Shown here piece after piece: positions 11,396-27,671 of a DNA stretch of 64,000 bases. The stretch covers positions 31,157-95,156 of the forward strand of contig JAFRVD010000019.1 in assembly GCA_017441825.1 (NCBI GenBank). Reading direction: 5' to 3'. The position numbers were made by a program, and so were the translations under genes. This stretch comes from Lachnospiraceae bacterium (lineage in GTDB: Bacteria > Bacillota > Clostridia > Lachnospirales > Lachnospiraceae). Below the pieces are notes generated by a model. It was not told the origin of the DNA, did no database searches, and saw only the letters and a list, made by a program, of their open reading frames with translations. Numbering within the stretch: the first letter of the stretch is position 1; every line of letters begins with the position of its first letter.

Positions 11396-11414
11396 CGCGC
11401 AGGTTTTGAAGCAT

Positions 11415-11604: not shown

Positions 11605-11608
11605 TTTA

Positions 11609-11635: not shown

Positions 11636-11678
11636 AATCTGCTTTCTTATGTTTCTCCACGGAAAGAAAAGGTATTAT

Positions 11679-13037
11679 ATGAAAAAATATTTTGTCAGGG
11701 ACAGGGCGTTCTATAAACTCCTGTTCGCGCTTCTTCTGCCTGTGGTCGCGCAGAACATGATCACCATAGGCGTGAACATCATGGACAACGTGATGCTCGG
11801 GAAGTACGGCGAGGTCCAGCTTTCCGGATGCTCGCTCGCGAACGATTTCATCAACATCTTCCACATTCTCTGCATGGGCATGGGAAGCGGGGCGGCAGTG
11901 CTCACAGCCCAGTATTACGGGGAGAAGCGGCCGGACAAGAGCCGCCAGACGGTAGCGATCATGTTCAGGATCTGCTTCGTGCTGGTCATCCTGTTCTCCG
12001 CGGCGTCTCTCATCTTTTCAAAGCAGATCCTGCATATCTATACCACGGATGAAGAGGTCATCGAACAAGGCGCGCTGTACCTTCGGCTGAGCGTTCCCAC
12101 ATTCCTCCTCATGGGTATTTCCCAGACGCTTACCATGGTCCTCCGGTCCGTCCGGAAGGCGCATTATCCTCTTTATGCATCGATCGTCGGCTTCGTTTGC
12201 AACGTGTTCTTCAACTGGGTGTTCATTTTCGGCCATTTAGGTGCTCCGGAATTAAAGATCGCAGGCGCGGCTATCGGTACGGTGCTTGCACGTGTGTTTG
12301 AGACGGCCATGGTCGCCGGCTATTTCTTCTTCAAGGACAAGGAGATCAATTTCCGGTTCAAGGATTTCTTCCTGCCGGCGGGCTATCTCCTGAAGCACTA
12401 TATCCATTACAGTATTCCTGTACTGTTTTCCGATCTGCTGCTTGCGCTCGGGAATACGATGGTCTCTATCGTGATCGGGCACGTCAGCACGGAATTCGTG
12501 GCGGCGAACGCCATAATAGCGACAATAGTCCGGCTAAGTACGGTCTTTGCGCAGGGACTTGGGAACGGGGCGGCTACAATAGTCGGAAACGAGCTGGGCG
12601 CCGGAAAGATCGAGGAGGTTCGTCTGGAGGCACGGACCATGGCGATCCTTGCGGTGGGCTTCGGCGTTGTGGCCGGCGGAGTTATCCTGATCCTTTCGCC
12701 GTGGATCATTTCGCTTTATGAGATCACGGAGACTACGCGCGGTATTGCGAAACAGATGATGGTAGCTGTGTCCATCATGGTGGTCTTCCAGGCTCTGCAG
12801 TCGGTGCTCACGAAGGGGATCCTACGCGGCGGCGGAGACACGCAGTTCTGCCTGTTTGCCGATGCCGGCTTCCTCTGGCTCGTTTCTGTGCCTTTGGGGT
12901 ACCTCACCGGTGTGGTGTGGGGTCTTTCTCCGTTTATCATTTACATTTCGTTAAAAATCGACTGGATGCTGAAGGATATCCTCTGCCTGTTCCGCTTAAA
13001 GAGCGGGAAGTGGATGAAAAAGGTCCCGACAGCGTAG
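11679..13037 (+). CDS. MATE family multidrug/metabolite exporter
   Basis: A 452-residue membrane protein of the MATE (NorM/DinF-like) family, with about twelve hydrophobic segments in two similar halves and the conserved early segment LLLPVVAQNMI followed by NIMDNVMLGKYG. Such proteins expel cationic drugs or metabolites using Na+ or H+ gradients. The ATG at 11679 is used because the longer in-frame extension runs through the tRNA-Lys gene and its terminator. The substrate cannot be predicted. Confidence 0.88.
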   Translation: MKKYFVRDRAFYKLLFALLLPVVAQNMITIGVNIMDNVMLGKYGEVQLSGCSLANDFINIFHILCMGMGSGAAVLTAQYYGEKRPDKSRQTVAIMFRICFVLVILFSAASLIFSKQILHIYTTDEEVIEQGALYLRLSVPTFLLMGISQTLTMVLRSVRKAHYPLYASIVGFVCNVFFNWVFIFGHLGAPELKIAGAAIGTVLARVFETAMVAGYFFFKDKEINFRFKDFFLPAGYLLKHYIHYSIPVLFSDLLLALGNTMVSIVIGHVSTEFVAANAIIATIVRLSTVFAQGLGNGAATIVGNELGAGKIEEVRLEARTMAILAVGFGVVAGGVILILSPWIISLYEITETTRGIAKQMMVAVSIMVVFQALQSVLTKGILRGGGDTQFCLFADAGFLWLVSVPLGYLTGVVWGLSPFIIYISLKIDWMLKDILCLFRLKSGKWMKKVPTA

Positions 13038-13302: not shown

Positions 13303-13315
13303 TAATGAGTTTTTG

Positions 13316-13356
13316 ACGAGCCCGCAGGCACATGTGCCTGCGGGCTCGTTTTTTTA
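13316..13356 (+). terminator. Terminator after rpsU
   Basis: A perfect 34-base palindrome (13316-13349) followed by seven T residues, starting 13 bases after the rpsU stop: a very strong intrinsic terminator. Confidence 0.93.
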
Positions 13357-13499: not shown

Positions 13500-14378
13500 A
13501 TGGGTACTGAGATCAGAGTTTCAAAGGCAGTGGAGGAAGCGCGGAAGGCCGTTTTTCCGGGCGGTCTTTCCCAGTACAGGACGCCTTATTCGAGAGAGCT
13601 GGAAGGAAAATATTACGACCTTGTTTTTGACGACGGGTCGGAGATGGCCGTTTCCTTTCCTGCAAGGAACAAGATCAGTTTTGATCTTAACGGTGTGAGG
13701 CACACGGAAAACGGATACGTCATGAAAGCCGACGACGGAGCCTACTTCGTCATGACGGAGGTCGCGGGCAGTAAGCCGCGCGAGGGCCTGATGCTTCTCC
13801 TGGATACGGACGAATCGCTTGTCACCGCGGACTTTGTGAAGATGGGCGCCGTAGCGGAGCGTCCGAACCTTGTGACACGCGAAGTAAAATTCGGCGCCAT
13901 CCGGTACGGCGATGAGCCGCTTCCCGAAAAGCGCCACCATTATACGCAGGATCTCGTGGGAAAGAAGATCGACTGGACGTATAATCCGAAGTTCCAGATC
14001 ACTCACGTCTACCTGAAAAACAACTACTACACTGTCGCGCTGAACGATGAGATGAAGGCCCGGCTCAGGGCCGAGCGCGAGGCGAATCCGGAAGCGGAGT
14101 CCCGTCCTCGCATGGACCCATACTATGAAGAAGACTGCATTTACATCAAGCTCCGCGACAACCTCTACATGTTCTCCTTCATTGAGAAGAACGGAGGCGG
14201 AACGCAGGGCATGATGATCATCAACACGGACCGCGTGCACGACGTGGGCAGCTTCTGGGGACCGTCTCCTGACGGCGGCAATGAAGCCTACATGTTCTCA
14301 GCCTACGGCAGGTGGGTGAGAGAGCACATTCCGGAGGACGACACGCTCGAGCGTCTCGCGGAAAAGAAAAAGGGATGA
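13500..14378 (+). CDS. MoaF-like calycin-fold protein (copy 1)
   Basis: A 292-residue cytoplasmic protein without signal peptide or membrane segment. Two calycin-like modules are visible: an N-terminal one opening ELEGKYYDLVFDDGS (residues about 35-125) and a C-terminal one containing GKKIDWTYNP, ITHVYLKNNYYT and YIKLRDNLYMFSFIE (about 155-270). This matches the MoaF N- and C-terminal domain architecture, which I also find reminiscent of phenolic acid decarboxylases. The name MoaF is historical and gives no reaction. It leads the permease genes (32-base gap). Residues VSKAVEEARKAVFPGGLS near the N-terminus recur in the copy at 25.5 kb. Function unknown. Confidence 0.72.
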   Translation: MGTEIRVSKAVEEARKAVFPGGLSQYRTPYSRELEGKYYDLVFDDGSEMAVSFPARNKISFDLNGVRHTENGYVMKADDGAYFVMTEVAGSKPREGLMLLLDTDESLVTADFVKMGAVAERPNLVTREVKFGAIRYGDEPLPEKRHHYTQDLVGKKIDWTYNPKFQITHVYLKNNYYTVALNDEMKARLRAEREANPEAESRPRMDPYYEEDCIYIKLRDNLYMFSFIEKNGGGTQGMMIINTDRVHDVGSFWGPSPDGGNEAYMFSAYGRWVREHIPEDDTLERLAEKKKG

Positions 14379-14410
14379 TTTATTAAGTTCACGTAAGGAA
14401 GGGAGAAGAG

Positions 14411-15373
14411 ATGGCGAAGAAAACCGAAGTGCCGGCAGGGCCCATACAGAGAAAAGGCTTCCGCCGGTTCGTCTACAAAGCCGTTCACTATAAATGGCTG
14501 CTCCTCATGCTGCTGCCGTCCCTGGTCTACATCATCCTGTTTGCCTATCTGCCACTGACAGGACTGGTGCTGGCTTTCAAAAAGTTCAATTACCGCGACG
14601 GCGTCTACTTAAGCCCGTGGAACGGCCTCAACAATTTCAAGTTCCTCATCATTTCAAAGAAGCTGTGGCCGCTCACCCGTAATACGCTTCTCTATAACGT
14701 CGCGTTCATAGTGACCGGGCTCATCTGCCAGGTCGGCCTTGCGATCCTGATCAACGAGATCCGCATCAAGACGTACAAAAAAGTCACGCAGTCGATGATC
14801 ATGCTGCCGTACTTTATTTCGTGGGTCGTCGTTTCCGCGATGTTCACCGCGTTCTTCGGATATGAGCAGGGTATTTTCTCGAACCTGATCCGTTCTCTTG
14901 GCGGCACGCCCTCGAACCTGACGCAGGAAAAGAAAACCTGGCCGTTTATCCTCGTGTTCATGCACATCTGGAAGGGACTCGGCTACGGTACCGTCGTGTA
15001 CCTTGCGGCCATCACCGGCATCGACCAGGAGATCTACGAAGCCGCGGAAGTGGACGGCGCGAACGTCTGGCAGCGTATCCGCTTCATCACGATCCCGTCG
15101 CTCCGGCCGACCATGATGACGATGTTCCTCCTGGCGCTCGGCAACGTCTTCCGCGGAGACTTCGGCATGTTCTACCAGCTGGTCGGATCAAACGCGAAGA
15201 TCCTGGAGATCGCGGACGTCCTCGACCTCTTCATCTACCGGATCCTGATCTCCAACAACGACATCGGCATGTCCAGTGCCGCAGGCCTGTATCAGTCTGT
15301 TCTGTGCTTCGTGACCATCGTCACGGTGAACAAGGTGATCAAGCTCGCGAACCCGGACTACGCGCTGTTCTGA
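14411..15373 (+). CDS. Carbohydrate ABC transporter permease, LplB-like
   Basis: A 320-residue inner-membrane permease with six main hydrophobic segments and the ABC-binding EAA loop (EAAEVDGANVWQRIRFITIP). It belongs to the binding-protein-dependent CUT1-type family seen with YesM/YesN regulators. It is followed after 19 bases by a second permease, and together they would form the membrane channel. No ATPase is encoded nearby, so a shared MsmX-type ATPase is likely. The substrate is probably an oligosaccharide or glycoside (inference). Confidence 0.88.
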   Translation: MAKKTEVPAGPIQRKGFRRFVYKAVHYKWLLLMLLPSLVYIILFAYLPLTGLVLAFKKFNYRDGVYLSPWNGLNNFKFLIISKKLWPLTRNTLLYNVAFIVTGLICQVGLAILINEIRIKTYKKVTQSMIMLPYFISWVVVSAMFTAFFGYEQGIFSNLIRSLGGTPSNLTQEKKTWPFILVFMHIWKGLGYGTVVYLAAITGIDQEIYEAAEVDGANVWQRIRFITIPSLRPTMMTMFLLALGNVFRGDFGMFYQLVGSNAKILEIADVLDLFIYRILISNNDIGMSSAAGLYQSVLCFVTIVTVNKVIKLANPDYALF

Positions 15374-15392
15374 TCAGGGAAAGGAGGGCAGC

Positions 15393-16319
15393 ATGACAGA
15401 GCTTACCACATCGGTAAAGGTCAGGAACAAGATCAGGCATAAGGACGAGATGACCATCAACATCCTTGCGTGTATCGTGGTCGGACTGGTCGCGTTCATC
15501 AGCCTGGTGCCGTTCTACGTGATCATAGTCAGTTCGTTCCGTTCGGAAGCATCCATCATCGCGAAAGGACACAGCCTGATCCCGCAGGACCTTTCCACTA
15601 CCGCGTATGAATACATTTTCCGTACGCCCAAGACCATCATCCGGGCGTACGCGAACACCATATTAGTGACCCTGGTCGGCACGTTCCTCGCAGTCATGAT
15701 GGCGACGATGACCGGCTACGTCCTTCAGCGTCCTGACTTTGACTGGCGGAATAAAATAGCGTTCTTCTTTTTCTTCACGACGCTGTTTAACGGCGGCCTG
15801 GTCCCGACCTACATGATCATGACTCAGATCTTTAAGTTCAAGAACAGCTATCACGCGCTGATCCTGCCGATGGCGTTCTCGGTCTGGAACATGATCATTT
15901 CAAAGACATTCATGCGAAGCATCTCGTATGAGCTCACCGAAGCGGCGAAGATCGACGGGGCGAACGACATACGCATTTTCTTTACGATCATCTTCCCGCT
16001 GGCACGGCCCCTGGTCGCAACCATCGGCCTGTTTACCGCGCTCGGCTACTGGAACGACTGGTACCAGTGCATGCTTTACGAATCCAAGGAGGAAATGTAC
16101 AATCTGCAGTTCTTCCTGAACGAGATCATCAACGGCATCCAGGGCCTGAAGGCCATCGCCTCCATGGGCGGTACCGTGGATATCTCGCTGGACGCGCTGC
16201 CGTCCGAGACCATGAAGATGGCCATGACGGTGGTCGCGATAGGACCGATCATTTTCCTGTATCCCTTCGTGCAGAAGTTCTTCGTGAAGGGACTCACGAT
16301 CGGTTCGGTCAAAGGATGA
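15393..16319 (+). CDS. Carbohydrate ABC transporter permease, LplC/YtcP-like
   Basis: A 308-residue partner permease with about six membrane segments. The EAA loop reads EAAKIDGANDIRIFFTIIFP, and a GGLVPTYM segment and the C-terminal FVKGLTIGSVKG are typical of this LplC/YtcP branch. The GGAGG site and close spacing to the first permease indicate an operon. Confidence 0.88.
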   Translation: MTELTTSVKVRNKIRHKDEMTINILACIVVGLVAFISLVPFYVIIVSSFRSEASIIAKGHSLIPQDLSTTAYEYIFRTPKTIIRAYANTILVTLVGTFLAVMMATMTGYVLQRPDFDWRNKIAFFFFFTTLFNGGLVPTYMIMTQIFKFKNSYHALILPMAFSVWNMIISKTFMRSISYELTEAAKIDGANDIRIFFTIIFPLARPLVATIGLFTALGYWNDWYQCMLYESKEEMYNLQFFLNEIINGIQGLKAIASMGGTVDISLDALPSETMKMAMTVVAIGPIIFLYPFVQKFFVKGLTIGSVKG

Positions 16320-16332
16320 TGCGAACTTGAAG

Positions 16333-16374
16333 GAATGCAAGCATTTATCGTATTCAATCTTTTGGCTTTGAATA
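16333..16374 (+). other. Small hairpins between permease and binding-protein genes
   Basis: AATGC-AA-GCATT (16333-16344) and TATTCAA / TTGAATA (16351-16357 with 16368-16374, ten-base loop) lie in the 103-base gap. No T-tract follows, so they may stabilise or separate the binding-protein mRNA segment rather than terminate. Confidence 0.35.
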
Positions 16375-16422
16375 GTCTTCATAATCTCTCAAGAAGGAGA
16401 AAAAAATAAAAAGGAGGAGAAG

Positions 16423-18045
16423 ATGATGAAGAAAGTATTAGCATTGATCCTTTGCATCGCACTGGCGATCTCTGCGCTTTCCGCATGTACCGCTCCGGCA
16501 GCAACGCCTGCCGATACCGGCACGAAGGAAGCTGAGGCACCCGCAGAGGAAGGCAAAGAGGATGAGGAAGCCCCCGCAGCAGAGGGCGACGAAGAGAATC
16601 CGTGGGCAGGCATCATGGATTACTCCAAGGAAGCGACCATCGTTTATACGGTGTTCGGCAACAAACCGAATGCGATGGACGAGATCCTGGACCTGATCAA
16701 TGAGAAGCTCATGAAGCTCATCAACACGAAGCTCGAGATGAACTTCATCACCCTTGCGGACTGGACCACCAAGTACCCCCTGGCACTTGCTGACGATTCC
16801 ATCGACATGATCTATGCCGCAAGCTGGAACAACTACGCGACCAACGCAGGCAAGGGCGCTTTCCTGGAGCTCACTGAGGACTTCAGAAGTACCTACCTTC
16901 CGGTAACCACCGAGGTCATGTCCCCGGCAGCGTGGAAGCAGGCTTCCATCGACGGCAAGGTTTACGGTGTTCCGAGGAACCAGCACGACAACAACAACTA
17001 CGGTGCTTTCATCTTCAGAAAGGACATCCTGGAGAAGACCGGCTATTCCGACGGCATCCACAACTACGACGAGTTCTTCGACTTTGTTGATAAGGCTGCG
17101 GAAGTCATGGATCCGGAAGACGGCTACGCATTCTACGCATTCCCGTCCATGCCGATGGTGCAGCCCTTCGAAATGCTGAAGGACCACATCATGAACGTGT
17201 ACAACAACCTGGCATGGTGCACGGATGAGGAGATCGAGCCCGACTGCAGCAACCTGAACTACTACTACCTGACCGACAGCTACAAGGAGTACGTGCTCCG
17301 CATGGCTGACTGGGCAAAGAAGGGCGTATGGCCGTCCACCGCGATCGACAGCTCGACCCATACTGAAGACCAGTTCACGAACGGCAGGTCCGCATTCTAT
17401 CAGGCACGTTACACCGAGGCCGGCAACATCATCAAGTCCATCGAAGAGAAAGGCTATGAAGTTGAGTACTGGCCGATCATCGACGACGACACCTACCTTC
17501 GTCTGACCGACTACTCCGGCGATATGACCGCCATCACCAGCATGTCCAAGCAGCCCGAGCGTGCAGCAGTCGTTCTTGATATCCTGAGAAACGATGTCGA
17601 GATCAACATGCTCTGCCAGGGCGGTATCGAAGGCCGTCACTACATCCTCAACGAGGACGGCACCCGTTCCGCAGGTCCGGAAGCCGATGAGTACGGCTGG
17701 TCCGCATGGGCATGGTCTCTTCGTGACATGAACCACTATCCGGTAGAGAAGCTTGAGCCCAGAGTACAGGCTGTCCTGGATGAGCTTGACAAGCACGTCC
17801 TTCCGGAAGAGAGATGGCCGTTCGACGGCTTTGTCACGAACGATGAGGCTTACGACAACATGAGCGCGGAGCTTGCGGTCGTGAAGTCAATCGTCACAGA
17901 GTATCAGTATTCCTTCGACCTTGGCGTATTCGGCGACGACACCGAGGCGAAATATGAGCAGTTCTGCCAGGAGCTGAAGGATGCCGGCATCGACAACCTG
18001 GTTGCTGAATGGCGGAAGCAGGCTGCTGAATATATGGCAAGATGA
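16423..18045 (+). CDS. Extracellular substrate-binding lipoprotein (SBP1)
   Basis: A 540-residue lipoprotein: Lys-Lys N-region, hydrophobic core and lipobox LSAC with Cys22, then an acidic Ala/Glu/Pro linker to about residue 60. The mature domain is a large CUT1-type binding protein of the group found with LplB/LplC permeases. It lies downstream of both permeases with a GGAGGAG site and is followed by a terminator, so it should be abundant. Residues CQGGIEGRHYILNEDGTR are identical in the second binding protein at 21.5 kb. Ligand unknown. Confidence 0.88.
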   Translation: MMKKVLALILCIALAISALSACTAPAATPADTGTKEAEAPAEEGKEDEEAPAAEGDEENPWAGIMDYSKEATIVYTVFGNKPNAMDEILDLINEKLMKLINTKLEMNFITLADWTTKYPLALADDSIDMIYAASWNNYATNAGKGAFLELTEDFRSTYLPVTTEVMSPAAWKQASIDGKVYGVPRNQHDNNNYGAFIFRKDILEKTGYSDGIHNYDEFFDFVDKAAEVMDPEDGYAFYAFPSMPMVQPFEMLKDHIMNVYNNLAWCTDEEIEPDCSNLNYYYLTDSYKEYVLRMADWAKKGVWPSTAIDSSTHTEDQFTNGRSAFYQARYTEAGNIIKSIEEKGYEVEYWPIIDDDTYLRLTDYSGDMTAITSMSKQPERAAVVLDILRNDVEINMLCQGGIEGRHYILNEDGTRSAGPEADEYGWSAWAWSLRDMNHYPVEKLEPRVQAVLDELDKHVLPEERWPFDGFVTNDEAYDNMSAELAVVKSIVTEYQYSFDLGVFGDDTEAKYEQFCQELKDAGIDNLVAEWRKQAAEYMAR

Positions 18046-18057
18046 TCCCTTTTGGGG

Positions 18058-18063
18058 TATAAT
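18058..18063 (+). promoter_or_regulatory. Perfect TATAAT just before the SBP1 terminator
   Basis: TATAAT with only a weak -35 (TGGCAA at 18035-18040, 17-base spacing). If active, transcripts would begin near 18070 and meet the terminator at 18091-18130. Confidence 0.3.
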
Positions 18064-18090
18064 GTCATAGACGTTTAACGGCTTTATACG

Positions 18091-18130
18091 GGGGCTGCCG
18101 TAGAGTTACTGATACGGCAGCCCCTTTATT
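18091..18130 (+). terminator. Terminator after SBP1
   Basis: A perfect 12-bp stem (18091-18102 with 18113-18124), a ten-base loop and TTTATT. It separates structural transporter genes from the regulators, and could also attenuate read-through into the response regulator. Confidence 0.85.
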
Positions 18131-18165
18131 AAGGTTTTACAGGCTGGATACGAGAGGACAGAAGA

Positions 18166-19770
18166 GTGAACACTGAGAAGACGACAAGGCTCCTTATAGT
18201 GGACGATGAGCCGACCACCATCAAAAGGATCTTTTCACGGATCGATTTCGATTCGCTCGGGATCGGGGATATCCGTACGGCAGAAAACGGACAGGAAGCG
18301 CTGTCTGTCTGCAGTGACTGGAGACCGGATATTCTGCTCTCGGACATCATGATGCCCAGGATGACCGGGATCGAGCTTGCGGAAGAGCTTAAGAAAGCTT
18401 ATCCGGACCTCAGGATCATCTTTCTGTCCGGTTATATGGAGAAGGAATTCCTGAAAGGAGCGATCCATCTGCAGGCGCTCAACTACATCGAAAAGCCGCT
18501 CGACATGGACGAGCTTTATGAGACGCTCCGGAACGCCCAGGACCAGCTTCTTGCTTCCGAGGATATCTCGCTCCGCCTGGAAAAGCTCGACGACGAGCAC
18601 CTGACCACCCAGCTCCGGCTACTCGCCTATGAGCTATGTGCGGAAAACTACCGCGAAGAGCTTGTCACGCAGTACTACAGCGAGGTCTTTGCCGGAAAAG
18701 AGGCGATGCCCTGTGTGGCCCTGCAGCTCAAATTCTACGTGCCTGAGCAGAAGGAATTCAATTCGCTGGTGGAGCTCCTGCCGCAGTTCAGAAAGGTAGC
18801 GGCGTCTTTGGGGCTTACAGCATGCGCAGTGGTAAAATACGATTATATCGTCGGCTTCCTGTTCGATGAGACAGGGGAGACCGGAAACGACAAAGTCTAT
18901 TTCGTTTCTGCGTTCCTCAGGGAGCTCCGTAAGGAGCTTGTCCTCTTAAACAAGAAGTATACCGCAGGCGCAGGCCACGTCTGCCCGGACTTTACGGAGC
19001 TTCATGAAAGCTTCCTGGAAGCGGAAGAGGCAAACAGGCTTGCTTTTTTCCATGGTCCCGGGTATCATTCATACTATAGAAAAAATATTAAAAAGTTTGA
19101 CTTTGAGTCGTGTGAAGCCCTGGAAGCCATCCGGAGCTTAAAAAAGAACGGAAGAGACCAGACCGTGTTCAAGCTTCGCGAGTTCAACACCGCTCTCGAA
19201 AGCTGCGAGGGAACGGACCCCGAGGACGTAAAGCGGTTCTATTCAAGCCTTGTCCTCGAGTTAAGCCGCCTGGCGCGGGAAGACGGCATCCGGCTGTTTG
19301 CGGAATATCCGGGAGATCACGACCTTCTTATAGTCGTCATGGAGCAGAACTTCCTGATCGAGCTTTTCGATTTCCTGATGATGGGGATCGAGACTTACTG
19401 CAACGTGCTTTCCAGGGATTATTATCCGAACCAGACGGTCAACTGGATCATCCGCTACATCCATGAGCACTATTCGGACCAGGACCTCGACATGACGATG
19501 CTGAGCAACGCCAGTAATCTGTCCTCGACCTACATAAGCCATCTTTTTAAGAATACGACCGGGAAAACGGTCAGGAACTATATTACGGAATACCGGATGA
19601 AGCAGGCGGTGAGGCTCCTTAAGGACCCCACCAACCAGATCAACGACATCGCTACGGCATGCGGGTACCGGAACGGCAACTATTTTTCCTTCCGGTTCAA
19701 GGAATGCTACGGATGTACGCCCACGGAGTATATAGAGCAAGGTGAAGGAAAAGCTGAAGGAACTATATAA
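18166..19770 (+). CDS. YesN-like response regulator, AraC-type
   Basis: A 534-residue cytoplasmic DNA-binding response regulator. The receiver domain (about 1-120) has acidic residues Asp13/Asp14, phospho-acceptor Asp60 in LLSDIMMPRMTG, and the conserved Lys in YIEKPLD. A long middle region (about 130-420) is followed by an AraC-type double helix-turn-helix at about 425-525 ending in the family signature GYRNGNYFSFRFKECYGCTP. The GTG start follows an AGAGGA site. It overlaps the kinase gene by 29 bases. It is expected to activate the neighbouring transporter and MoaF-like genes. Confidence 0.9.
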   Translation: MNTEKTTRLLIVDDEPTTIKRIFSRIDFDSLGIGDIRTAENGQEALSVCSDWRPDILLSDIMMPRMTGIELAEELKKAYPDLRIIFLSGYMEKEFLKGAIHLQALNYIEKPLDMDELYETLRNAQDQLLASEDISLRLEKLDDEHLTTQLRLLAYELCAENYREELVTQYYSEVFAGKEAMPCVALQLKFYVPEQKEFNSLVELLPQFRKVAASLGLTACAVVKYDYIVGFLFDETGETGNDKVYFVSAFLRELRKELVLLNKKYTAGAGHVCPDFTELHESFLEAEEANRLAFFHGPGYHSYYRKNIKKFDFESCEALEAIRSLKKNGRDQTVFKLREFNTALESCEGTDPEDVKRFYSSLVLELSRLAREDGIRLFAEYPGDHDLLIVVMEQNFLIELFDFLMMGIETYCNVLSRDYYPNQTVNWIIRYIHEHYSDQDLDMTMLSNASNLSSTYISHLFKNTTGKTVRNYITEYRMKQAVRLLKDPTNQINDIATACGYRNGNYFSFRFKECYGCTPTEYIEQGEGKAEGTI

Positions 19771-21541
19771 CAGGACCGCCGGGAAGGCAGTGTACTTGGG
19801 ACTCAGGAGCAAACAGCTCCTGTTCACGCTGCTGTGCTTCCTGGCGCTTGTTTTCTTTGCGTTCATCCTGCTTAGGACCATCTATAATTCTTCCATGAAG
19901 TCGGGCCTTCAGAACCTCGAGTCTTCCCTGAATTCCGCCTGCAGCTCCCTGGAAACGGAGACGGACCAGATCTACAGAAACTCGATCGTCATGCTCAGAA
20001 ATGCGGACCTTAAAACGCTCCTGCAGGACCGGCTATCCGAGGAAGACATCCCCGGGCTTATCTCGACCAAGAACCAGGCCGTATCCTTTGTGCGCGTGCT
20101 GGATGAAAACACGTTCATTTCAGGGACCCGGATCTATCTCCGGGATAACCGGACGTTCCTTTCCGATGAGGATCTTTTCTATTCCATCTCCGAGATCGAA
20201 TATGAAGACTGGGCCTCAGATTTCCTTAAGGGGAGCCGTAAAAGCCTCTGGGTCGTGCTCCCGGGAAACGGTGCGAAGGATGTGCCGGATTCGGCGGACA
20301 GTGTCTTCTATCTGACCCGCGTGGTATCCACGGAGGAGTACGATCAGACGGAAGCCCTGATCCGGATCGATTATTCGACGGAACACGTCGGACAGATACT
20401 GAATTACGCGCTGATCTCAAAAGAGTGCGGCATCGCGCTTTACGAGCCGGAGGGCGGCCTGATCGCTTCATCCGGAGACCTGTTCTGGGATGAGGAAACG
20501 GCCCGCGGGATCTCCGGGGATGCTGTTTCCGGAAAGGTTATGACGGAGAACGGACAGAGCCTTTACTACGTGCGTACGATACCCGACACAGGGTGGAAGC
20601 TCGTGGCATGCGTGCCGGAGAGCAGCTTTAAGGCGCTTAACAAGATCCGCATTTTCCTGCCGGTCCTCCTTGTGGTCGCAGTCAGCTGGGCGGGACTTCT
20701 CCTGATCTCCGCATCTTATTCGGCGAATATCGTCCGGAAGATCCGGAAGATCTCGGACCATGTAGGCGCGATCCAGTCGGAGAACGACGTCCGGCTGCTT
20801 CCCCCGTTCAAATCCAAGGACGAACTCCAGGCCCTTGTTGACAGCTACAACCAGATGGCCGTATCCCTTAAAGAAAACCTGGAACGGGAGTACCTCCTCG
20901 GCATGTCGAAGCGGAGCTCGGACCTGAAGGCCCTTCAGGCGCAGATCAACCCGCATTTCCTGTACAACACGCTCGAGCTCATCGACTACTACGCCTATGA
21001 GAACGATCCGGAAACCGTGGAAAAGATCGTAAAGAGCCTGGCTAGTTTTTATAAGCTCAGCTTAAACAACGGCAACGATCTTTACTCCCTCTGGAAAGAA
21101 ATCCAGCTGATCACGTCTTATATGATGATCCAGAACATCCGGTGGGAGAGCAGCATCGAGCTTGTCACGGAGATCCCGGACGAGCTCATGCAGTGCCAGA
21201 TCCCTCCGTTCACGCTGCAGCCTCTTATAGAGAATTCCGTGCTGCACGGGATCCGCGGCAATGAAAAGCATAGAGGCACGATCATCGTAAGGGCGAGAAA
21301 AGAAGAAGATACGGTGATCATCACGGTGTCCGACGACGGCATCGGCATGGAGCCCGAGCTTGTCGATGAACTGAACCGCGAGATGGACATGATCTCCGAG
21401 GACACCATCAGCGGAGATCACTACGGCATCCAGAACAGCAACCAGCGCCTGAAGATCATCTTCGGTCCCCGTTACGGGATGAGGGTCTTCAGCAGACCGA
21501 ACGAAGGCACGCTCGTGGAGATCGTGATCCCGGCGTCATAA
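19742..21541 (+). CDS. YesM-like sensor histidine kinase
   Basis: A 599-residue membrane kinase. A first membrane helix lies near residues 22-45, an extracellular sensor region of about 255 residues (Cache-like) follows, then a second helix near 302-325, a HAMP segment, and a kinase core with LQAQINPHFLYNTLELIDYY (His near residue 404), the N-box region QPLIENSVLHGI and the G-box DDGIGM. This is the YesM/LytS-type kinase class. The gene overlaps the response regulator and is followed after nine bases by a second binding lipoprotein, which may present ligand to the sensor domain. Confidence 0.9.
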   Translation: MKEKLKELYNRTAGKAVYLGLRSKQLLFTLLCFLALVFFAFILLRTIYNSSMKSGLQNLESSLNSACSSLETETDQIYRNSIVMLRNADLKTLLQDRLSEEDIPGLISTKNQAVSFVRVLDENTFISGTRIYLRDNRTFLSDEDLFYSISEIEYEDWASDFLKGSRKSLWVVLPGNGAKDVPDSADSVFYLTRVVSTEEYDQTEALIRIDYSTEHVGQILNYALISKECGIALYEPEGGLIASSGDLFWDEETARGISGDAVSGKVMTENGQSLYYVRTIPDTGWKLVACVPESSFKALNKIRIFLPVLLVVAVSWAGLLLISASYSANIVRKIRKISDHVGAIQSENDVRLLPPFKSKDELQALVDSYNQMAVSLKENLEREYLLGMSKRSSDLKALQAQINPHFLYNTLELIDYYAYENDPETVEKIVKSLASFYKLSLNNGNDLYSLWKEIQLITSYMMIQNIRWESSIELVTEIPDELMQCQIPPFTLQPLIENSVLHGIRGNEKHRGTIIVRARKEEDTVIITVSDDGIGMEPELVDELNREMDMISEDTISGDHYGIQNSNQRLKIIFGPRYGMRVFSRPNEGTLVEIVIPAS

Positions 21542-21550
21542 GGAGGCACG

Positions 21551-23095
21551 ATGAAGAAATCAGTGGTCTTCCTCATCATTCTGATCTGTTCCTGCCTGCT
21601 CACGGCAGTCTCGTGCAGCAGGGAGACGGAGACTCAGGAGGAGACGGTCAAGGAAGAGAATATCTGGACGGAATGCATGGATCTTTCCGCCCGGAAAAAT
21701 ATCCGCCTGGTGGTGATCGGAAGCATGCCGGATGATTTTGACGAGGTCCTTGCAGAGATCAATCGGAAGCTTCTTGAAAAGATCAATACGACCATCAGCG
21801 TCAAGATCATCTCGCTTTCCGAGTGGAACGTGATCTATCCCCTGATGCTTTCGGGAGGAGAACAGATCGACCTGATCTATACTGCGGAGTGGTGCGATTA
21901 CGCGCAGGAAGCCGGAAAAAACGCTTTTCTCGAGCTCACGGACGATTTTGTGAAGCAGTACATGCCGGTGTCTTACGCGCATACGCCCGAAGTAGTCTGG
22001 GACCAGGCCAGGGTTTCCGGGAAGATCTACGCGCTTCCGAGGACCTATACGGACAACTCAAGCTACGGCGCAGTGCTCATCCGGAAGGATATCCTCGAGA
22101 AGACCGGCATGGATACCGTCGATTCCCTGGATTCTTATGAAGAATTCCTGTATAAAAGTGCGTCTCTCGGCCTTTCCGGCTATCCTTTCGTCGCTTTTCC
22201 GTCTCTCCCCATGGTTTCCATGCTGATGCTTCCGAAGGAGCATATGCTGACGGTCTCGCAGGAGCTTGTCTGGGATACCGACGAAGGCCCGGCTGACCCG
22301 GAAAAGCTCATGTTTCTTTACGATACGGACGAATACCGTGAATACTGTCTCCGCATGGCCGCCTGGGCGGAAGCCGGCGTCTGGCCCTCGAACGCCATCT
22401 CCGGCACCATCCACACCTTCAGGCATCTGGAAGAAGGGAGGAGCTTCTCCGCCGTCGTCCGGATGCATGAGGCCCAGAATTATCTCGATTCTCTTGCGCG
22501 CCGCGGCTATCCCGCAAAGATCTACTGCGTGCTTGACGAAGATGCCTACGTACGCATGAACCATTATTCCGGGGATATGCTTTCGATCTCCATCTTTTCC
22601 GCGGATCCGGCCCGTGCGGCGCTCTGCCTGGACGTATTAAAACACGACAGGGAGATCAATCTTCTTTGCCAGGGCGGGATCGAAGGGAGACACTATATCC
22701 TTAATGAAGACGGCACTCGGGAACGGGGCCCGGAATATACGGATTACGTCTGGTCCGACTGGGCCTGGGCGCTCCGGAACGGGGAGTTCTATCCTCTGGA
22801 AAAGAAGAGTGAGGAAGTCCTCCGTGTCGCGGAAGAGATCGATTCACACCTCCTTCCCGACGATGAATGGCCCTTTACGGGCTTCCGCATGGATGATACG
22901 GCCGTTATTGCAGAGATCAGCGTGATCCGTTCGCTCATTCAGGAATATGAATATTCCTTCAATCTGGGTGTATTCGGGGATGAAACGGACGTGAAGGTAC
23001 GCGAATTCCAGGCAAAGCTCCACGATGCAGGCCTGGATAAGGTCATGGAAGAATGGAAAAAACAGCTTCGCATGTGGCTTTCGGAGACGGACTGA
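21551..23095 (+). CDS. Second substrate-binding lipoprotein (SBP2)
   Basis: A 514-residue lipoprotein with a Lys-Lys N-region and lipobox AVSC (Cys22), then a binding-protein fold clearly paralogous to SBP1: both contain CQGGIEGRHYILNEDGTR and similar C-terminal WPFxGF and NLGVFGDET-type segments. It lacks SBP1's long acidic linker. It starts nine bases after the kinase gene, so it is likely co-translated with the sensor. Either it feeds the same permeases with another ligand or it is a sensory accessory protein. The terminator begins inside its last codons. Confidence 0.86.
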   Translation: MKKSVVFLIILICSCLLTAVSCSRETETQEETVKEENIWTECMDLSARKNIRLVVIGSMPDDFDEVLAEINRKLLEKINTTISVKIISLSEWNVIYPLMLSGGEQIDLIYTAEWCDYAQEAGKNAFLELTDDFVKQYMPVSYAHTPEVVWDQARVSGKIYALPRTYTDNSSYGAVLIRKDILEKTGMDTVDSLDSYEEFLYKSASLGLSGYPFVAFPSLPMVSMLMLPKEHMLTVSQELVWDTDEGPADPEKLMFLYDTDEYREYCLRMAAWAEAGVWPSNAISGTIHTFRHLEEGRSFSAVVRMHEAQNYLDSLARRGYPAKIYCVLDEDAYVRMNHYSGDMLSISIFSADPARAALCLDVLKHDREINLLCQGGIEGRHYILNEDGTRERGPEYTDYVWSDWAWALRNGEFYPLEKKSEEVLRVAEEIDSHLLPDDEWPFTGFRMDDTAVIAEISVIRSLIQEYEYSFNLGVFGDETDVKVREFQAKLHDAGLDKVMEEWKKQLRMWLSETD

Positions 23096-23119
23096 GTCTC
23101 CGGAGGCCACACATTTTTT
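23074..23119 (+). terminator. Terminator overlapping the 3' end of SBP2
   Basis: A 15-bp stem (23074-23088 with 23096-23110, two G-T wobbles) has the stop codon in its seven-base loop and is followed by ACA and six T residues. Confidence 0.85.
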
Positions 23120-23144
23120 CGTTCGGAATGACAGGTTTTCGGGA

Positions 23145-23174
23145 TTGCTCGTTTTTTCAGCTGTATCATATACT
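23145..23174 (+). promoter_or_regulatory. Promoter of the NmrA/MoaF gene set
   Basis: TTGCTC (23145-23150), an 18-base spacer and TATACT (23169-23174). A terminator lies upstream, so the three following genes probably form a separate transcript. An ACTGGT...ACCAGT inverted repeat (23172-23198) starts at the -10 box and could be an operator. Confidence 0.5.
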
Positions 23175-23228
23175 GGTCTTAATAAAGCAGAAACCAGTTT
23201 GCTGTTTTGCGAAAGAGAGGGAAATTTC

Positions 23229-24710
23229 ATGAAAGTTGCTATTATCGGAGCAAGCGGAAGAGTCGGCGGATTAGTCGCGGACGAGCTCGTTTCGCGCGGC
23301 CATGAGGTCACCGGCTTTGTGATCGATCCGGAAAACGTCCGGAACGACCAGATCAAAGTCGTTGAGAAGAACGTCTTCACGCTGACCAAAGAGGATCTTC
23401 AGGATTTTGACGCTGTGGTCACTGCGTTCGGGCAGTTCACGCCCGGCCTCGGCTTCCAGCATCAGACGGCCATGATGACGCTCATCAACGCAATGAAGGA
23501 TCTCCCGGACGTCCGTCTCCTTGTAGTGGGCGGCGCCGCAAGCCTGTTCACTGACGAAGCCAAGGAGCATCGTGCGCTTGAAAGGATCCCGGAGAAGTTC
23601 CACGAAGTGCCGTCGAACATGTTCGAGGCTTTCAAGATGCTCGAGAAGAGCGATCTTAAGTGGACGTATTTCAGCCCCGCGTTCACGTTCGATCCGAAGG
23701 GGACCCGGACCGGCAAATACAAGCTCGGCACGGATTTCATCTTCAACAACGATGAAGGCGAGAGCTACATCAGCTACGCAGACTACGCGCTCGCGATGGC
23801 TGACGAGATCGAAAACGGCAATTTCATCCGCAGAAGATTCACCGCGGTATCCAACAAGAACGACGCGCCGGAAGAGCTCGCGTCCACAAAGAAGGAATTC
23901 CCGGACGTGGAATTCGAAGGCCTGTCCATGTACAGGGCTCCGTCAGTCCTTGAACTGTCCGGAAAGAGCTATTATCTCATCATGGATGACGGTACGGAAG
24001 GATCGCTCATCTTCAATTCCGGCGAGATCGTCACTTGGATCCCGATCGGCGGGACGGCCCGCGCGGACCGCTACGACTGCCTCAAGGTGGACGAGGACAC
24101 GTACCTTGTGAACCTGGAGGTTGCCGACGCCAAGCCGAGGACCGGCGTTTCGCTCGTTCTCGATCTTGAGCAGAGGCTCGTTACGGCTGTCATCGCGCAT
24201 TCCGGCACCAGCCGCAGGTTCCCGAGCCTCGTCACGAACGAGATCGTCTTCGGCGCAATCAAGATGGACGGCAGACCGCTTCCGAAGAAGCGTCACGGCT
24301 TCACGAGCGACCTCGTAGGTTCACGCATCAAATGGCGCTATAACTCCGTGCCGATGGCCGTCACCCACGTCTATTTTGACGCGAACTACATCCGCGTTCC
24401 GCTTCCTCCGAAGACCGACCAGTCCGACAGAGCGAAGGCCATGCGCGAAAATCCGTATGATGAACGGTGCTATTACATCAAGATCAAGAAGAATATCTAC
24501 CTGATCTCCTTCCTGGAGAGCAACATGACGTACCGCGGAAGGACAGGCAACAACATGCTCGTCCTCATGGACATCAGCAGGCTGCATGACGTCGGCCGTT
24601 CGTTCGGACTCGGCGGAACGGGCCTTCCGGAGAACTATATGTTCTCGGCCATCGGTTCCTGGGTGGATGCTGAAGAAGAGGACTTCCGCGAAAGCAAATA
24701 CCGCGTATAA
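23229..24710 (+). CDS. NmrA-like NAD(P)-binding / MoaF-like fusion protein
   Basis: A 493-residue two-part protein. Residues about 1-215 form an NmrA/YwnB-type Rossmann domain with the dinucleotide motif GASGRVGG, LLVVGGAASLF and WTYFSPAFTFDPKG. From about residue 235 a MoaF-like calycin region follows: VLELSGKSYYLIMDDGT for module 1, then GSRIKWRYN, VTHVYFDANYI and YIKIKKNIYLISFLE for module 2. The ATG at 23229 has GAGAGGG upstream; longer in-frame sequence overlaps SBP2 antisense-like codons and is rejected. Separate copies of both halves follow immediately. Probably a cytoplasmic oxidoreductase or isomerase; the reaction is unknown. Confidence 0.75.
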   Translation: MKVAIIGASGRVGGLVADELVSRGHEVTGFVIDPENVRNDQIKVVEKNVFTLTKEDLQDFDAVVTAFGQFTPGLGFQHQTAMMTLINAMKDLPDVRLLVVGGAASLFTDEAKEHRALERIPEKFHEVPSNMFEAFKMLEKSDLKWTYFSPAFTFDPKGTRTGKYKLGTDFIFNNDEGESYISYADYALAMADEIENGNFIRRRFTAVSNKNDAPEELASTKKEFPDVEFEGLSMYRAPSVLELSGKSYYLIMDDGTEGSLIFNSGEIVTWIPIGGTARADRYDCLKVDEDTYLVNLEVADAKPRTGVSLVLDLEQRLVTAVIAHSGTSRRFPSLVTNEIVFGAIKMDGRPLPKKRHGFTSDLVGSRIKWRYNSVPMAVTHVYFDANYIRVPLPPKTDQSDRAKAMRENPYDERCYYIKIKKNIYLISFLESNMTYRGRTGNNMLVLMDISRLHDVGRSFGLGGTGLPENYMFSAIGSWVDAEEEDFRESKYRV

Positions 24711-24721
24711 GAGGTAAGGGT

Positions 24722-25483
24722 ATGAAGATCGGTATTATCGGCGCGACAGGCCGTGAAGGCCGGCTGATCACGGAAGAAGCCGTGCGCCGCGGACACGAGG
24801 TGACCGCCATTGTCCGGAATGCGGAGAAGGCGGCGTCCTTAGGTGTCCCCGTGATCGAAAAGGATATCTTCAGCCTGACTTCAGAGGACCTCAAAGGCTT
24901 TGACGCGGTCGTCTCGGCCTTCGGCGTACCGGCCGGGTCGCCTCTCGCGTTCCAGTATGAGACAGTCGGCTTCACGCTGACGAAGCTTTTTGAGCAGCTC
25001 CCGGACACGAGACTCCTCTTTGTGGGCGGCGCGGCGAGCCTTTATACGGACGAGAAGATGAAAACACGCGTCATCGAATCCGGAGCGATCCCTGAAGCGT
25101 ACAAGGCAGTCCCGTATCATGCCTGGAGATCTTATATGGCACTCCAGACGAGCTCCGTCAACTGGACGTATTTCAGCCCCGCCCTCACGTTCGACCCGAA
25201 CGGGGAACGGACGGGAAGCTATACGCTCGGCGCGAACTACGTCATTAAAAACAAGGCCGGAGAGAGCTACATCAGCTACCAGGACTATGCCATTGCAATG
25301 GTGGACGAGATCGAGCAGGGCCGCTTCATCCGGAAACGGTTTACCGCGGTCTCCGAGCATCCGGGGAAAGAATCGGATGCTCCGGAAAAGTCTGCGGCAG
25401 CTCCGGAAACGCCGGAAGACGAAGGGGCCGCTCCGGAAGCTCCGAAGCCGGGCTTCTTCGCGAGACTGTTCGGAAGGAAATAA
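24722..25483 (+). CDS. NmrA/YwnB-like NAD(P)-binding protein
   Basis: A 253-residue Rossmann-fold protein: GIIGATGREG dinucleotide-binding motif, then VSAFGVPAGSPLAFQYET, LLFVGGAASLYTDE and WTYFSPALTFDPNGERTG. It is closely similar to the N-terminal half of the preceding fusion. A Pro/Ala/Glu-rich tail (about residues 215-245) ends in GFFARLFGRK, a short amphipathic-looking terminus. It lies between the fusion gene (11-base gap) and a free MoaF-like gene (13-base gap), repeating the fusion's domain order as two genes. An NAD(P)H-dependent reductase role is likely but the substrate is unknown. Confidence 0.78.
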   Translation: MKIGIIGATGREGRLITEEAVRRGHEVTAIVRNAEKAASLGVPVIEKDIFSLTSEDLKGFDAVVSAFGVPAGSPLAFQYETVGFTLTKLFEQLPDTRLLFVGGAASLYTDEKMKTRVIESGAIPEAYKAVPYHAWRSYMALQTSSVNWTYFSPALTFDPNGERTGSYTLGANYVIKNKAGESYISYQDYAIAMVDEIEQGRFIRKRFTAVSEHPGKESDAPEKSAAAPETPEDEGAAPEAPKPGFFARLFGRK

Positions 25484-25496
25484 CAGGAGAATCTAT

Positions 25497-26366
25497 ATGA
25501 ACATACAAGTATCAAAGGCGGTAGAGGAAGCCAGAAAAGCGGTTTTCCCCGGCGGGCTTTCCAGGTACCGCGGACCATTTTCGAGGGAACTTGAAGGGCA
25601 GCAGTTTGAACTCGTCATGGACGAGGGTCCTTCCATCACTGTTTCGTTCCCTGCAAGGAACAAGGCGCTCGTCACAGACGGCGGGGCGCCGATGGATGCG
25701 GACACCCAGATCCAGAAGGCGGAGGACGGCGCGTACTTTGTGCTGGCCGACATCCGCGGCTCAAAGCCCAGGACGGCGTACATGATGGTGATCGACCTCT
25801 TTGAAAGCCTCGTGACGGTAGTCAAGGCGCAGCAGGGAACTGTGGAAAGCTTCCCGAACCTTGTAACGAGGAATGTACGCTTCGGAGCGATCCGGGACGG
25901 AGAGGGAAACCTTCCCGAAAAGAGGCCTTCGTTCACAAAGGACCTCGTCGGCAAGAAGATCGACTGGACCTATAACCCGGACTTCTCCATCATCCACGTT
26001 TATCTCGATGAAAATTACTACACGACGGCCAGAAATGAAGAGATGAAGAAAAAGATGGAGGAGGCGCGGAAAAAGGATCCGGGCAGGTTCCCGAAGCGGA
26101 TGGATCCGTATTATGAAAAGGACTGCCTGTATATCAAGCTCCGTGAGAACCTGTATCTGTTCTCGTTCGTCGAGTTCAATTCGGGAAGCGGGACGCAGGG
26201 AATGATGATCATCAATAGGGACCGGCTCACTGACGTCGGCTGCTTCTGGGGAAGCAACCGCGAGAACGTGCAGGAAGGGTATACCTTCAACGCGTACGGC
26301 AAGTGGGTCCGCGAGGAGATCCCGGAGGATCATACGGTTGAGCGCGTAAAGGCGCTACTAAAATAA
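25497..26366 (+). CDS. MoaF-like calycin-fold protein (copy 3)
   Basis: A 289-residue paralog of the protein at 13.5 kb. Both share VSKAVEEARKAVFPGGLS at the start, an ELEG-x2-FELVMDEG first module, and a second module with GKKIDWTYNP, IHVYLDENYYT and YIKLRENLYLFSFVE followed by GTQGMMIINRDR. The start ATG at 25497 follows a CAGGAGA site. No signal peptide is present. It is the last gene of the NmrA/MoaF set, so a protein complex or sequential steps with the NmrA-like proteins is plausible. Confidence 0.72.
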   Translation: MNIQVSKAVEEARKAVFPGGLSRYRGPFSRELEGQQFELVMDEGPSITVSFPARNKALVTDGGAPMDADTQIQKAEDGAYFVLADIRGSKPRTAYMMVIDLFESLVTVVKAQQGTVESFPNLVTRNVRFGAIRDGEGNLPEKRPSFTKDLVGKKIDWTYNPDFSIIHVYLDENYYTTARNEEMKKKMEEARKKDPGRFPKRMDPYYEKDCLYIKLRENLYLFSFVEFNSGSGTQGMMIINRDRLTDVGCFWGSNRENVQEGYTFNAYGKWVREEIPEDHTVERVKALLK

Positions 26367-26368
26367 GC

Positions 26369-26398
26369 TTGACAGGGACCTGTGATTCGGGTTAGATA
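26369..26398 (+). promoter_or_regulatory. Promoter before the PNPOx-like gene
   Basis: A perfect TTGACA (26369-26374), an 18-base spacer and a moderate -10 TAGATA (26393-26398), 30 bases before the ATG. Confidence 0.5.
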
Positions 26399-26427
26399 AA
26401 GATAATACACTACGAAAGGAGACTGAC

Positions 26428-26820
26428 ATGAAGGAGATCACAGAATTTATCAAGGAGGCAAGGACTTTTTATCTTGCGACTGAAGACGGGGACCAGCCGG
26501 AGGTCCGGCCGATCGGCGTACTTCAGGAATATGACGGCGTATTATATACTGCCGTAGGCAAACACAAAAAGGTCTATAAGCAGATCCAGGCGAATCCGAA
26601 GATCTGTATCGTAGCACTGAACAAGGGTGCATGGGTCCGTGTCCGCGCGAAAGCGGTGGATGCGCCGCAGGAGATCGTGGACCGCGTATTTGCGGACAAT
26701 CCGTTCCTGAGCACCATCTACAACGACCAGAGCGGCCTGAAGCTGGGCGTTCTCGCGCTTACGGAAGGCGAAGTGGAATTCTGCAGCATGATGGGTCCGG
26801 ACAGGACGGAACCGCTGTAA
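26428..26820 (+). CDS. Pyridoxamine 5'-phosphate oxidase-like flavoprotein
   Basis: A 130-residue split-barrel protein of the PNPOx-like family. The opening FYLATEDGDQPEVRPIG and the segment KVYKQIQANPKICIVAL are typical of small FMN- or F420-type binding proteins, many of unknown substrate. It is too short and lacks the C-terminal motif of true PdxH. It has its own promoter and is followed by a strong bidirectional terminator, so it is a single-gene unit. Confidence 0.8.
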   Translation: MKEITEFIKEARTFYLATEDGDQPEVRPIGVLQEYDGVLYTAVGKHKKVYKQIQANPKICIVALNKGAWVRVRAKAVDAPQEIVDRVFADNPFLSTIYNDQSGLKLGVLALTEGEVEFCSMMGPDRTEPL

Positions 26821-26984: not shown

Positions 26985-27647
26985 TTACAGCTTCCCCGCC
27001 GCCCAGTCGATCGCACGGGCGAGGATCTCCTGGTAAGACGGATGCTGCAGCACCGCACAGTTGTGACCGGGGGTCAGGACGACCAGGCGGCCCTTGCCGA
27101 CCTCTTTTGTGTAGCCCGCGGGCTGCGTGCCGGCTTCGGTATCCGAAGTGGTGGTCATGAAGATGTCCAGATTCTCTTCGCCGTACAGTCTGATCATGTA
27201 GTGTTCGTCGCGGAAGGTGAAGGGCTCGATCCCTGAAATGATAGGATGGTCCTTCACTGCCTTCGCAGTGATGTCGCACTGCTTCGGGTGACGGAGGAAT
27301 TCATTGCCGATGAGCTCGACCATGTCCATGCGCGTCTCCGGATGATAGGTGTTGCCGGAGTGGAGCGCAATGAAGCCGCGGCCCGATTCGATGTACTCCT
27401 TGAAATCGTTCGGCATGACTGCCGTCACCGTATCCTCAAACCACGGAGAGCCGGCGTTTGCCGGGCTGTGCGCGTTGCCCTTCGCGTTGATGATCACGTC
27501 GTAGTCATAGAGCATGGTCTTTGTCAGGATGTCCTTGGCCGCCATCACGATATCGAGCTCGTAGCCAAGCTTTTCAAGGGGCTTTAAGCCTCTCGCGATC
27601 ACCTCGCCCGGATGCCAGATATCGTCGCAGATCACTAATACTTTCAT
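26985..27647 (-). CDS. ThuA-like domain protein
   Basis: A 220-residue class-I-glutamine-amidotransferase-like protein of the ThuA (trehalose utilisation) family. Characteristic segments are VLVICDDIWHPGEV near the start, GRGFIALHSGN in the middle and HPIISGIEPFTFRDEHYMI later, with a final GRLVVLTPGHNC. ThuA proteins occur with disaccharide-oxidising enzymes, but their own chemistry is uncertain. It is the last gene of a four-gene minus-strand operon, 24 bases after a GH5 gene. Confidence 0.8.
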   Translation of the reverse strand: MKVLVICDDIWHPGEVIARGLKPLEKLGYELDIVMAAKDILTKTMLYDYDVIINAKGNAHSPANAGSPWFEDTVTAVMPNDFKEYIESGRGFIALHSGNTYHPETRMDMVELIGNEFLRHPKQCDITAKAVKDHPIISGIEPFTFRDEHYMIRLYGEENLDIFMTTTSDTEAGTQPAGYTKEVGKGRLVVLTPGHNCAVLQHPSYQEILARAIDWAAGKL

Positions 27648-27671
27648 GCTGATGTCCTTTCTTTGGTGTTG

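Follow-up and report, generated by a model that had tools for sequence, protein, structure and literature searches.

What would proteins of MoaF, a family for which we know of no established reaction, do beside a carbohydrate-type ABC importer? The question is raised by a gene cluster in the window, that is, a 64,000-nucleotide stretch of the draft genome of a Lachnospiraceae bacterium (GCA_017441825.1, contig JAFRVD010000019.1; 2.6 Mb, 94 contigs, 82% complete). As the initial annotation had proposed, Pfam places there three MoaF-like proteins, two NmrA-type domains, an LplB/LplC importer and the regulators YesM and YesN. Beyond that description, one MoaF and one NmrA prove to be a single 493-aa protein, a second solute-binding protein (SBP) is encoded, and a PNPOx gene extends the cluster past position 26366, where the annotated span had ended. 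The cluster probably imports a sugar-linked molecule and rearranges it chemically. Among the papers listed from the open-licence literature (subscription papers not covered), we recognised none that treats the function of MoaF or the present gene set, and we did not find an uptake-and-catabolism cluster with this enzyme set described.

Regulated uptake loci as such are ordinary. Here, two BPD_transp_1 permeases and a DUF3502 binding protein stand in one unit, and a His_kinase-family sensor adjoins a receiver-AraC regulator (Pfam). The permeases, the DUF3502 binding proteins, the AraC-type regulator and the His_kinase sensor are the same as in LplB/LplC/LplA-type carbohydrate importers with YesM/YesN, names that follow Bacillus usage. 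The five PDB matches of the first binding protein, SBP1, are all solute-binding or sugar-transporter proteins, one of them named only Lin1841, and for the cluster proteins scanned Pfam gave no match to an ABC ATPase. In contrast to the usual loci of this type, the window importer is linked to MoaF, NmrA and PNPOx instead of glycoside hydrolases.

MoaF and its kinship with phenolic acid decarboxylases

In each of the three MoaF copies both Pfam halves (PF10703 and PF17409) score above the gathering threshold; moaF1 and moaF3 are 60% identical, while moaF2, the copy that is fused to NmrA, shares 40% with moaF1 and 37% with moaF3. The family, which occurs in a monoamine context in Klebsiella, has a solved member, 4q51 ("uncharacterized protein"), that our profile matches at 6.7e-31; compared with the family generally, MoaF in the window is multiplied and fused to NmrA. 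In an alignment of 59 rows, numbered here after moaF1, four columns are invariant, namely Gly154, His169 and Glu229 (the latter two in 59/59 rows) and Gly250, and near-invariant residues are Arg145, His146, Trp159, Tyr161 (57/59) and Tyr171.

A kinship of MoaF with phenolic acid decarboxylases (PADs), a comparison raised by the initial annotation, is borne out at the level of sequence profiles by two methods, for the C-terminal half only. Against PDB sequences at E<=10, the MoaF profile has six matches, 4q51 and five phenolic acid or ferulate decarboxylases (2p8g, 0.0054; 4alb, 0.0064; 3nad, 0.076; 8a85, 0.73; 8b30, 1.4), of which five only 2p8g and 4alb fall below 0.01. Profile-profile comparison of MoaF with three PADs gives a probability of 91.7%; when the halves are compared separately with hhalign, the C-half reaches 92.8% and the N-half 3.2%, and the controls for the C-half stay at 0.5% (reversed) and at most 1.5% (20 column shuffles). 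The two halves match each other at 95.5%, and MoaF therefore looks as if a PAD-like unit had been duplicated internally. In the alignment of the C-half with PAD (PF05870; 2p8g, PadC 4alb), Tyr161 falls on PAD Tyr13 and Glu229 on PAD Glu64, both residues being kept, and Trp159 falls on PAD Tyr11. In a calculated quinone-methide mechanism of PAD hydration, Glu64 acts as general acid/base (a passage of PMC10116590), and in one postulated PAD binding mode Tyr11 and Tyr13 hold the phenol while Arg41 holds the acid (a passage of PMC10915792). With the Pfam profile PF05870 itself, the three MoaF proteins gave no match at E up to 0.1, nor did any protein of the own genome match it.

In the MoaF tree, moaF1 and moaF3 group with copies of genomes G245 and G295 and of locus L038 (97/83), and moaF2 with the G245 fusion and both L039 copies (100/99). 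Four of the five rows of the moaF1/moaF3 class have no Tyr at column 72; in moaF1 this loss may be a matter of alignment, because Gly stands at the common Tyr72 position and Tyr one residue further on, and moaF3 lacks both Tyr72 and His146, the latter being absent from its L038 counterpart as well. These losses suggest that the class partners moaF2, or has taken on a different role, and does not simply duplicate it. Against L038, the MoaF half of the fusion keeps 96% protein identity with a dN/dS of ~0.02 (one pair, a rough value with synonymous sites near saturation), next to 0.05 for NmrA, 0.09 for moaF3, 0.14 for SBP2 and 0.15 for part of YesM. The MoaF half is thus under purifying selection in this one comparison. 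Recent recombination as the source of the 96% identity was rejected because third positions (0.54 identical) are as diverged as in the neighbours (0.44-0.53).

Recurrence of the association and fusions of NmrA

The expectation that MoaF-like genes would be linked with LplB/LplC permeases and NmrA-like genes elsewhere withstood a conservation check, as other genera and families likewise have MoaF, NmrA, LplB/LplC and YesM/YesN linked. MoaF itself is rare (9/397 family-level and 9/392 order-level genomes, own genome included). LplB and PNPOx were searched in 15 MoaF-bearing genomes, including the own one and leaving out G576; open reading frames of relatives were picked by a simple script, with some starts wrong and some frames antisense, and their labels come from our own profiles, each built from few members. 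LplB homologues are common (at least one match in 14/15 genomes, 29 in the own genome), so that nearness to MoaF alone proves little. The test on LplB leaves out G154, which has no match, hence 13 other genomes, and in 6 of these the best match (47-69% identity) lies within ~10 kb of MoaF (best of 32 in G245, 22 in G444, 19 in G519, 58 in G413, 19 in G295 and 22 in G542). A simple placement model, in which genomes are taken as independent and neighbourhoods as fixed widths, expects 0.15 (P about 2e-9). PNPOx, with 0-4 homologues per genome, adjoins MoaF in 6/14 other genomes (G075, G245, G295, G413, G444 and G542), where the same model expects 0.21 (P about 2e-8); the PNPOx protein matches the NimC/NimA family structure 2ig6 at 7.2e-24. 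Moreover, the run LplB-LplC-SBP-MoaF-PNPOx is found in both L031 (G295) and L176 (G542), which belong to different families and whose MoaFs are sisters in the tree.

The two NmrA domains of the window are 54% identical, and the NAD(P)H-binding domain scores above the Pfam cut-off. They match over the whole domain NmrA-like proteins named "putative NADH-flavin reductase" (4r01, 1.3e-43; 3h2s; also Lmo0794, 3ew7), from which the domain differs in being fused to MoaF here and to a GH63-like domain elsewhere. Plant pinoresinol, isoflavone and phenylcoumaran reductases are NmrA-type as well; no solved one was among the eight PDB matches at E<=0.01, and one weak match of NmrA is to a cinnamoyl-CoA reductase (0.0055).

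We scanned named contigs with the fusion alignment, the patterns being taken from its NmrA half only, and considered the best 80 of 409 relatives, which represent 78 distinct loci. Fourteen of these (L038-L051, two of them cut by a contig end) carry the NmrA-MoaF fusion, and in the remaining 64 the match is confined to the NmrA part. The fusion loci come from 13 metagenome-assembled genomes (MAGs), five with ruminant-type names (labelled RUG or RGIG, one with goat jejunum in its title), seven in termite-gut code style and one of unknown source, with no cultured isolate among the 14 loci; we take the RUG label to mean a rumen-type MAG. Other bins coded Kf353, Gx485 and Md513 are from termite hosts (passages of PMC11707648 and PMC12483993), and the remaining termite codes were assigned by analogy. 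An unfused MoaF is also present in 12 of the 14 loci, LplB and/or LplC in 8, YesM and/or YesN in 7, GH63-like genes in 7, PNPOx in 5 and a MATE exporter of one subfamily (60-69% identity) in 4; several of these contigs are short, so absences mean little. A plasmid scan gave 187 matching records, none covering >80% of the fusion, and the 8 matches listed concern the NmrA part only.

Fusions of NmrA to a GH63-like domain (PF22422) are likewise found in many records. In the own genome, L146 (4397-11868) reads SBP, LplB, LplC, a carboxylesterase-type frame and then an NmrA-GH63 fusion, and we regard this locus as sister to the window cluster. L041, L046 and L051 each have two GH63-like genes ahead of NmrA-MoaF, and in L048 (8177-11512), from a MAG with the termite-type code Gx481, a continuous 1111-aa frame joins GH63, NmrA and MoaF; seen in a single MAG, this frame may also reflect an assembly error or a lost stop codon. 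Two loci from termite-type MAGs (L052 and L056) have a stand-alone NmrA, then LplB/LplC and two GH63-like genes without MoaF, so the NmrA-GH63 partnership does not need MoaF. The profile of the GH63-like proteins is nearest to 5oie (1.6e-10; titled "hydrolase", a related entry being titled Mycobacterial hydrolase) and its kin, then to TTHA0978 and YgjK, over short stretches only, and their NCBIfam matches to glucosylglycerate hydrolase and alpha-glucosidase are weak and far below cut-off. Like YgjK and the glucosylglycerate/mannosylglycerate hydrolases, these partners match PF22422; unlike them, they are fused to NmrA or stand beside NmrA-MoaF.

Layout of the cluster and its surroundings

Terminator-like stems at 13315-13350, 5' of moaF1, and between SBP2 and the fusion gene (Table 1) suggest two same-strand transcription units, 13500-23095 (moaF1, lplB, lplC, SBP1, yesN, yesM, SBP2) and 23229-26820 (nmrA-moaF2 fusion, nmrA2, moaF3, PNPOx). 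Both stems come from a consensus scan that returned 23 terminator-like sites in the window versus 15.9 in shuffles. A common upstream motif was not found for 13500 versus 23229 or for 13500 versus 18166, the best 16-mer being 11/16 in both and the shuffle means 11.1 and 10.9.

Table 1. Genes and signals of the MoaF-NmrA-importer cluster (positions in the window)
Feature	Position	Strand	Description
moaF1	13500..14378	+	292 aa, two calycin-type halves; MoaF 4.8e-10, MoaF_C 1e-10; Pfam, tree, residue table
lplB-like importer permease	14411..15373	+	BPD_transp_1 (Pfam)
lplC-like importer permease	15393..16319	+	BPD_transp_1; copy in L025 66% identical
SBP1, solute-binding lipoprotein	16423..18045	+	DUF3502, SBP_bac_8
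YesN-type response regulator	18166..19770	+	Receiver plus AraC helix-turn-helix (Pfam)
YesM-type sensor histidine kinase	19742..21541	+	HAMP, His_kinase, HATPase_c; dCache weak, below cut-off
SBP2, second solute-binding lipoprotein	21551..23095	+	DUF3502; 44% identical to SBP1
Intrinsic-terminator-like stem, 16 pairs	23073..23111	+	Consensus scan only; between both proposed units
nmrA-moaF2 fusion	23229..24710	+	493 aa; NmrA-type ~1-225, complete MoaF ~226-493; NAD_binding_10 2.8e-18 (N-half), MoaF 1.9e-13, MoaF_C 2.1e-6 (Pfam)
nmrA2, stand-alone NmrA-type protein	24722..25483	+	253 aa; NAD_binding_10-type match 9.9e-16
moaF3	25497..26366	+	289 aa; MoaF 5.1e-7, MoaF_C 9.4e-9
PNPOx/NimA-like protein	26428..26820	+	130 aa, flavin-binding family; Pfam, PDB match

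On the minus strand at 26985-30252 lie divergent genes for thuA, a GH5 protein (endoglycoceramidase-like by NCBIfam, below cut-off), a 191-aa protein without a Pfam match and an SDR protein. As candidate parts of the system thuA, GH5 and SDR were rejected, thuA and GH5 having no match in the compared loci of relatives and sdrA weak ones only. The MATE gene at 11463-13037 was likewise rejected as the exporter of the system, as it shares only 22% identity with the relatives' MATE and is separated from the cluster by an rpsU-like gene (by eye) and a terminator-like stem. Upstream of it are five tRNA genes (Pro, Gly, His, Gln and Lys; 11137-11605).

MoaF occurs in other settings too. Elsewhere in the own genome, a 595-aa tandem MoaF (L037:9445-11232) adjoins an Na+/H+ antiporter-family gene, and another MoaF (L036:9073-10029) shares a 10-kb stretch with two GH2-type genes and has an LplB copy ~15 kb away. 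In G626, an 898-aa protein (L143:265-2961) shows two MoaF-like repeats by eye, one above the Pfam cut-off, between a signal-peptide-like stretch near its start and C-terminal S-layer-like repeats, and this MoaF is apparently located outside the cell.

A possible catabolic route and its alternatives

We propose, as a reading that is quite possible if still short of probable, a sensor-controlled catabolic cluster of clostridia in the guts of plant-feeders, which would import a sugar-linked molecule and then convert it by redox and acid-base chemistry. YesM/YesN would sense a signal and switch the cluster on, and the LplB/LplC importer with its two DUF3502 binding proteins would take up a sugar-linked small molecule, for which we infer the class of a plant-derived glycoconjugate. 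The GH63-like hydrolases fused to or beside NmrA/MoaF in relatives would probably release the sugar, a task performed in the window's organism perhaps by an enzyme encoded at L146. The NmrA domains and PNPOx would supply an NAD(P)H/FMN redox step, presumably in the reductive direction. MoaF, as a duplicated PAD-like calycin, would carry out an acid-base step (elimination, hydration or isomerisation, hence a lyase, hydratase or isomerase) by means of the conserved Tyr161, His169, Tyr171 and Glu229, and the NmrA-MoaF fusion may channel the intermediate. A MATE exporter, present in some relatives, would fit the removal of the non-sugar product. A bolder form of this proposal, which we regard as doubtful, is a modular glycoconjugate system in which one NAD(P)H domain is swapped onto either MoaF or a GH63-like hydrolase, and deglycosylation, reduction and acid-base rearrangement would run on a channelled, possibly quinone-methide-like intermediate.

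Several observations weigh against the catabolic route, beginning with the genomes in which the association is incomplete. In 7/13 genomes MoaF lacks the best LplB as a neighbour: this LplB lies away from it in G075, G265, G321, G626 and G619 (in the last on a 7.5-kb contig adjoining two GH63-like genes, L177), and the stretches around the MoaF of G219 and G382 (L026, L027 and L033) hold no LplB, the PF10703 match of G382 being a 135-aa frame that escaped our own MoaF profile. In 8/14 genomes PNPOx does not adjoin MoaF. No importer of this kind was found in the stretches read around the MoaF of G075, G154, G219, G265, G321 and G626, and the importer-free MoaF loci are L023, L026-L030, L032, L034, L035 and L182; MoaF therefore does not need the importer. 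In G075, the nearest relative (same genus), PNPOx and two MoaFs stand together with no importer there, and in L034 and L035 (G265 and G321) MoaF directly adjoins a MerR-family regulator and forms its own long branch in the tree. The association foreseen by the initial annotation thus recurs among relatives, while in several genomes MoaF is found with no such importer.

The comparison with known enzymes adds further points on the same side. In contrast to PAD, MoaF consists of two halves rather than one unit and has the additional His169 and Tyr171; the Tyr11 equivalent is not kept (Trp159 in 56/59 rows, Phe in 2 and Tyr in 1), and no Arg column conserved at >=75% is found in the stretch that would hold carboxylate-binding Arg41, an absence to which we attach modest confidence because the alignment is gapped there. 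Since a conserved Arg41 counterpart is missing, simple PAD activity appears unlikely and we do not class MoaF as a PAD. With the residues lost from moaF3, not all copies need be active. The only pointer to an aromatic substrate is the relation to PAD, and a reductive role for NmrA would follow from structural-genomics names rather than from assays. No glycoside hydrolase lies within the window cluster, and the glycoside part of the substrate would gain its backing from the GH63-like partners at other loci. Altogether, the initial interpretation is supported in part, through the linkage and the PAD kinship.

The alternative that we take most seriously, although unlikely, is oxidation-elimination chemistry on the sugar, without hydrolysis: NmrA would use NAD+ to turn the imported glycoside into a keto sugar, MoaF would eliminate the aglycone and rehydrate, and NmrA/PNPOx would reduce the product. 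The carbohydrate type of the importer and the fusion of NmrA to both MoaF and GH63-like domains suit this chemistry, and levoglucosan is processed by a four-step route of this kind in a Bacillus (PMC7676230). However, the PDB relatives of NmrA include two named putative NADH-flavin reductases, and GH63-like domains, which are putative hydrolases, accompany the system in relatives. Keto-sugar glycoside cleavage of the Dgp/Car type or by the gut 3-keto route involves a Gfo/Idh/MocA dehydrogenase or a DUF1080 lyase/hydrolase, and neither a Gfo/Idh/MocA dehydrogenase nor a DUF1080 keto-disaccharide hydrolase matched any of 10 cluster proteins (E up to 0.1) or PNPOx, the rest of the genome not having been searched for them. 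To a similar degree we consider it improbable that the locus serves ordinary oligosaccharide uptake, with MoaF, NmrA and PNPOx in general redox housekeeping or in detoxification of plant phenolics. The abundance of LplB-type importers and the MoaFs without importers (G154 and G219) are in keeping with it, and the MATE exporters near 4/14 fusion loci fit detoxification, whereas the recurrence of the best LplB and of PNPOx with MoaF beyond expectation, and the fusion of NmrA to a hydrolase-like domain in many records, argue otherwise.

That MoaF is not an enzyme at all, and would instead be a lipocalin-like ligand carrier or a sensor holding a reactive intermediate for NmrA/PNPOx, seems very unlikely to us. 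The calycin fold also covers binding proteins, and the L143 protein looks like an exported MoaF with its S-layer-like region (by eye); against a carrier stand the invariant His169 and Glu229 and near-invariant Tyr161, Arg145 and Tyr171, the correspondence of Tyr161 and Glu229 with PAD active-site residues, and the low dN/dS in one comparison. Chance neighbourhood, which would suit the importers missing near MoaF in several genomes, is hardly credible given that clusters and fusions recur across several genera and families.

The catabolic route proposed here is unusual in that MoaF, a family without a known reaction, is tied by gene order and fusions to an importer, an NAD(P)H partner and a flavin-family protein, and in relatives also to a glycoside hydrolase-like protein, partners that make this open family testable. 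As 12 of the 13 MAGs with the fusion bear ruminant- or termite-type names, and such habitats abound in plant glycosides and fragments of lignocellulose, the pathway could be relevant to the way in which ruminant and termite gut communities handle plant compounds. If the modular glycoconjugate system proved true, it would provide the first reaction for the MoaF family and would explain the use of one class of plant glycosides by rumen and termite clostridia.

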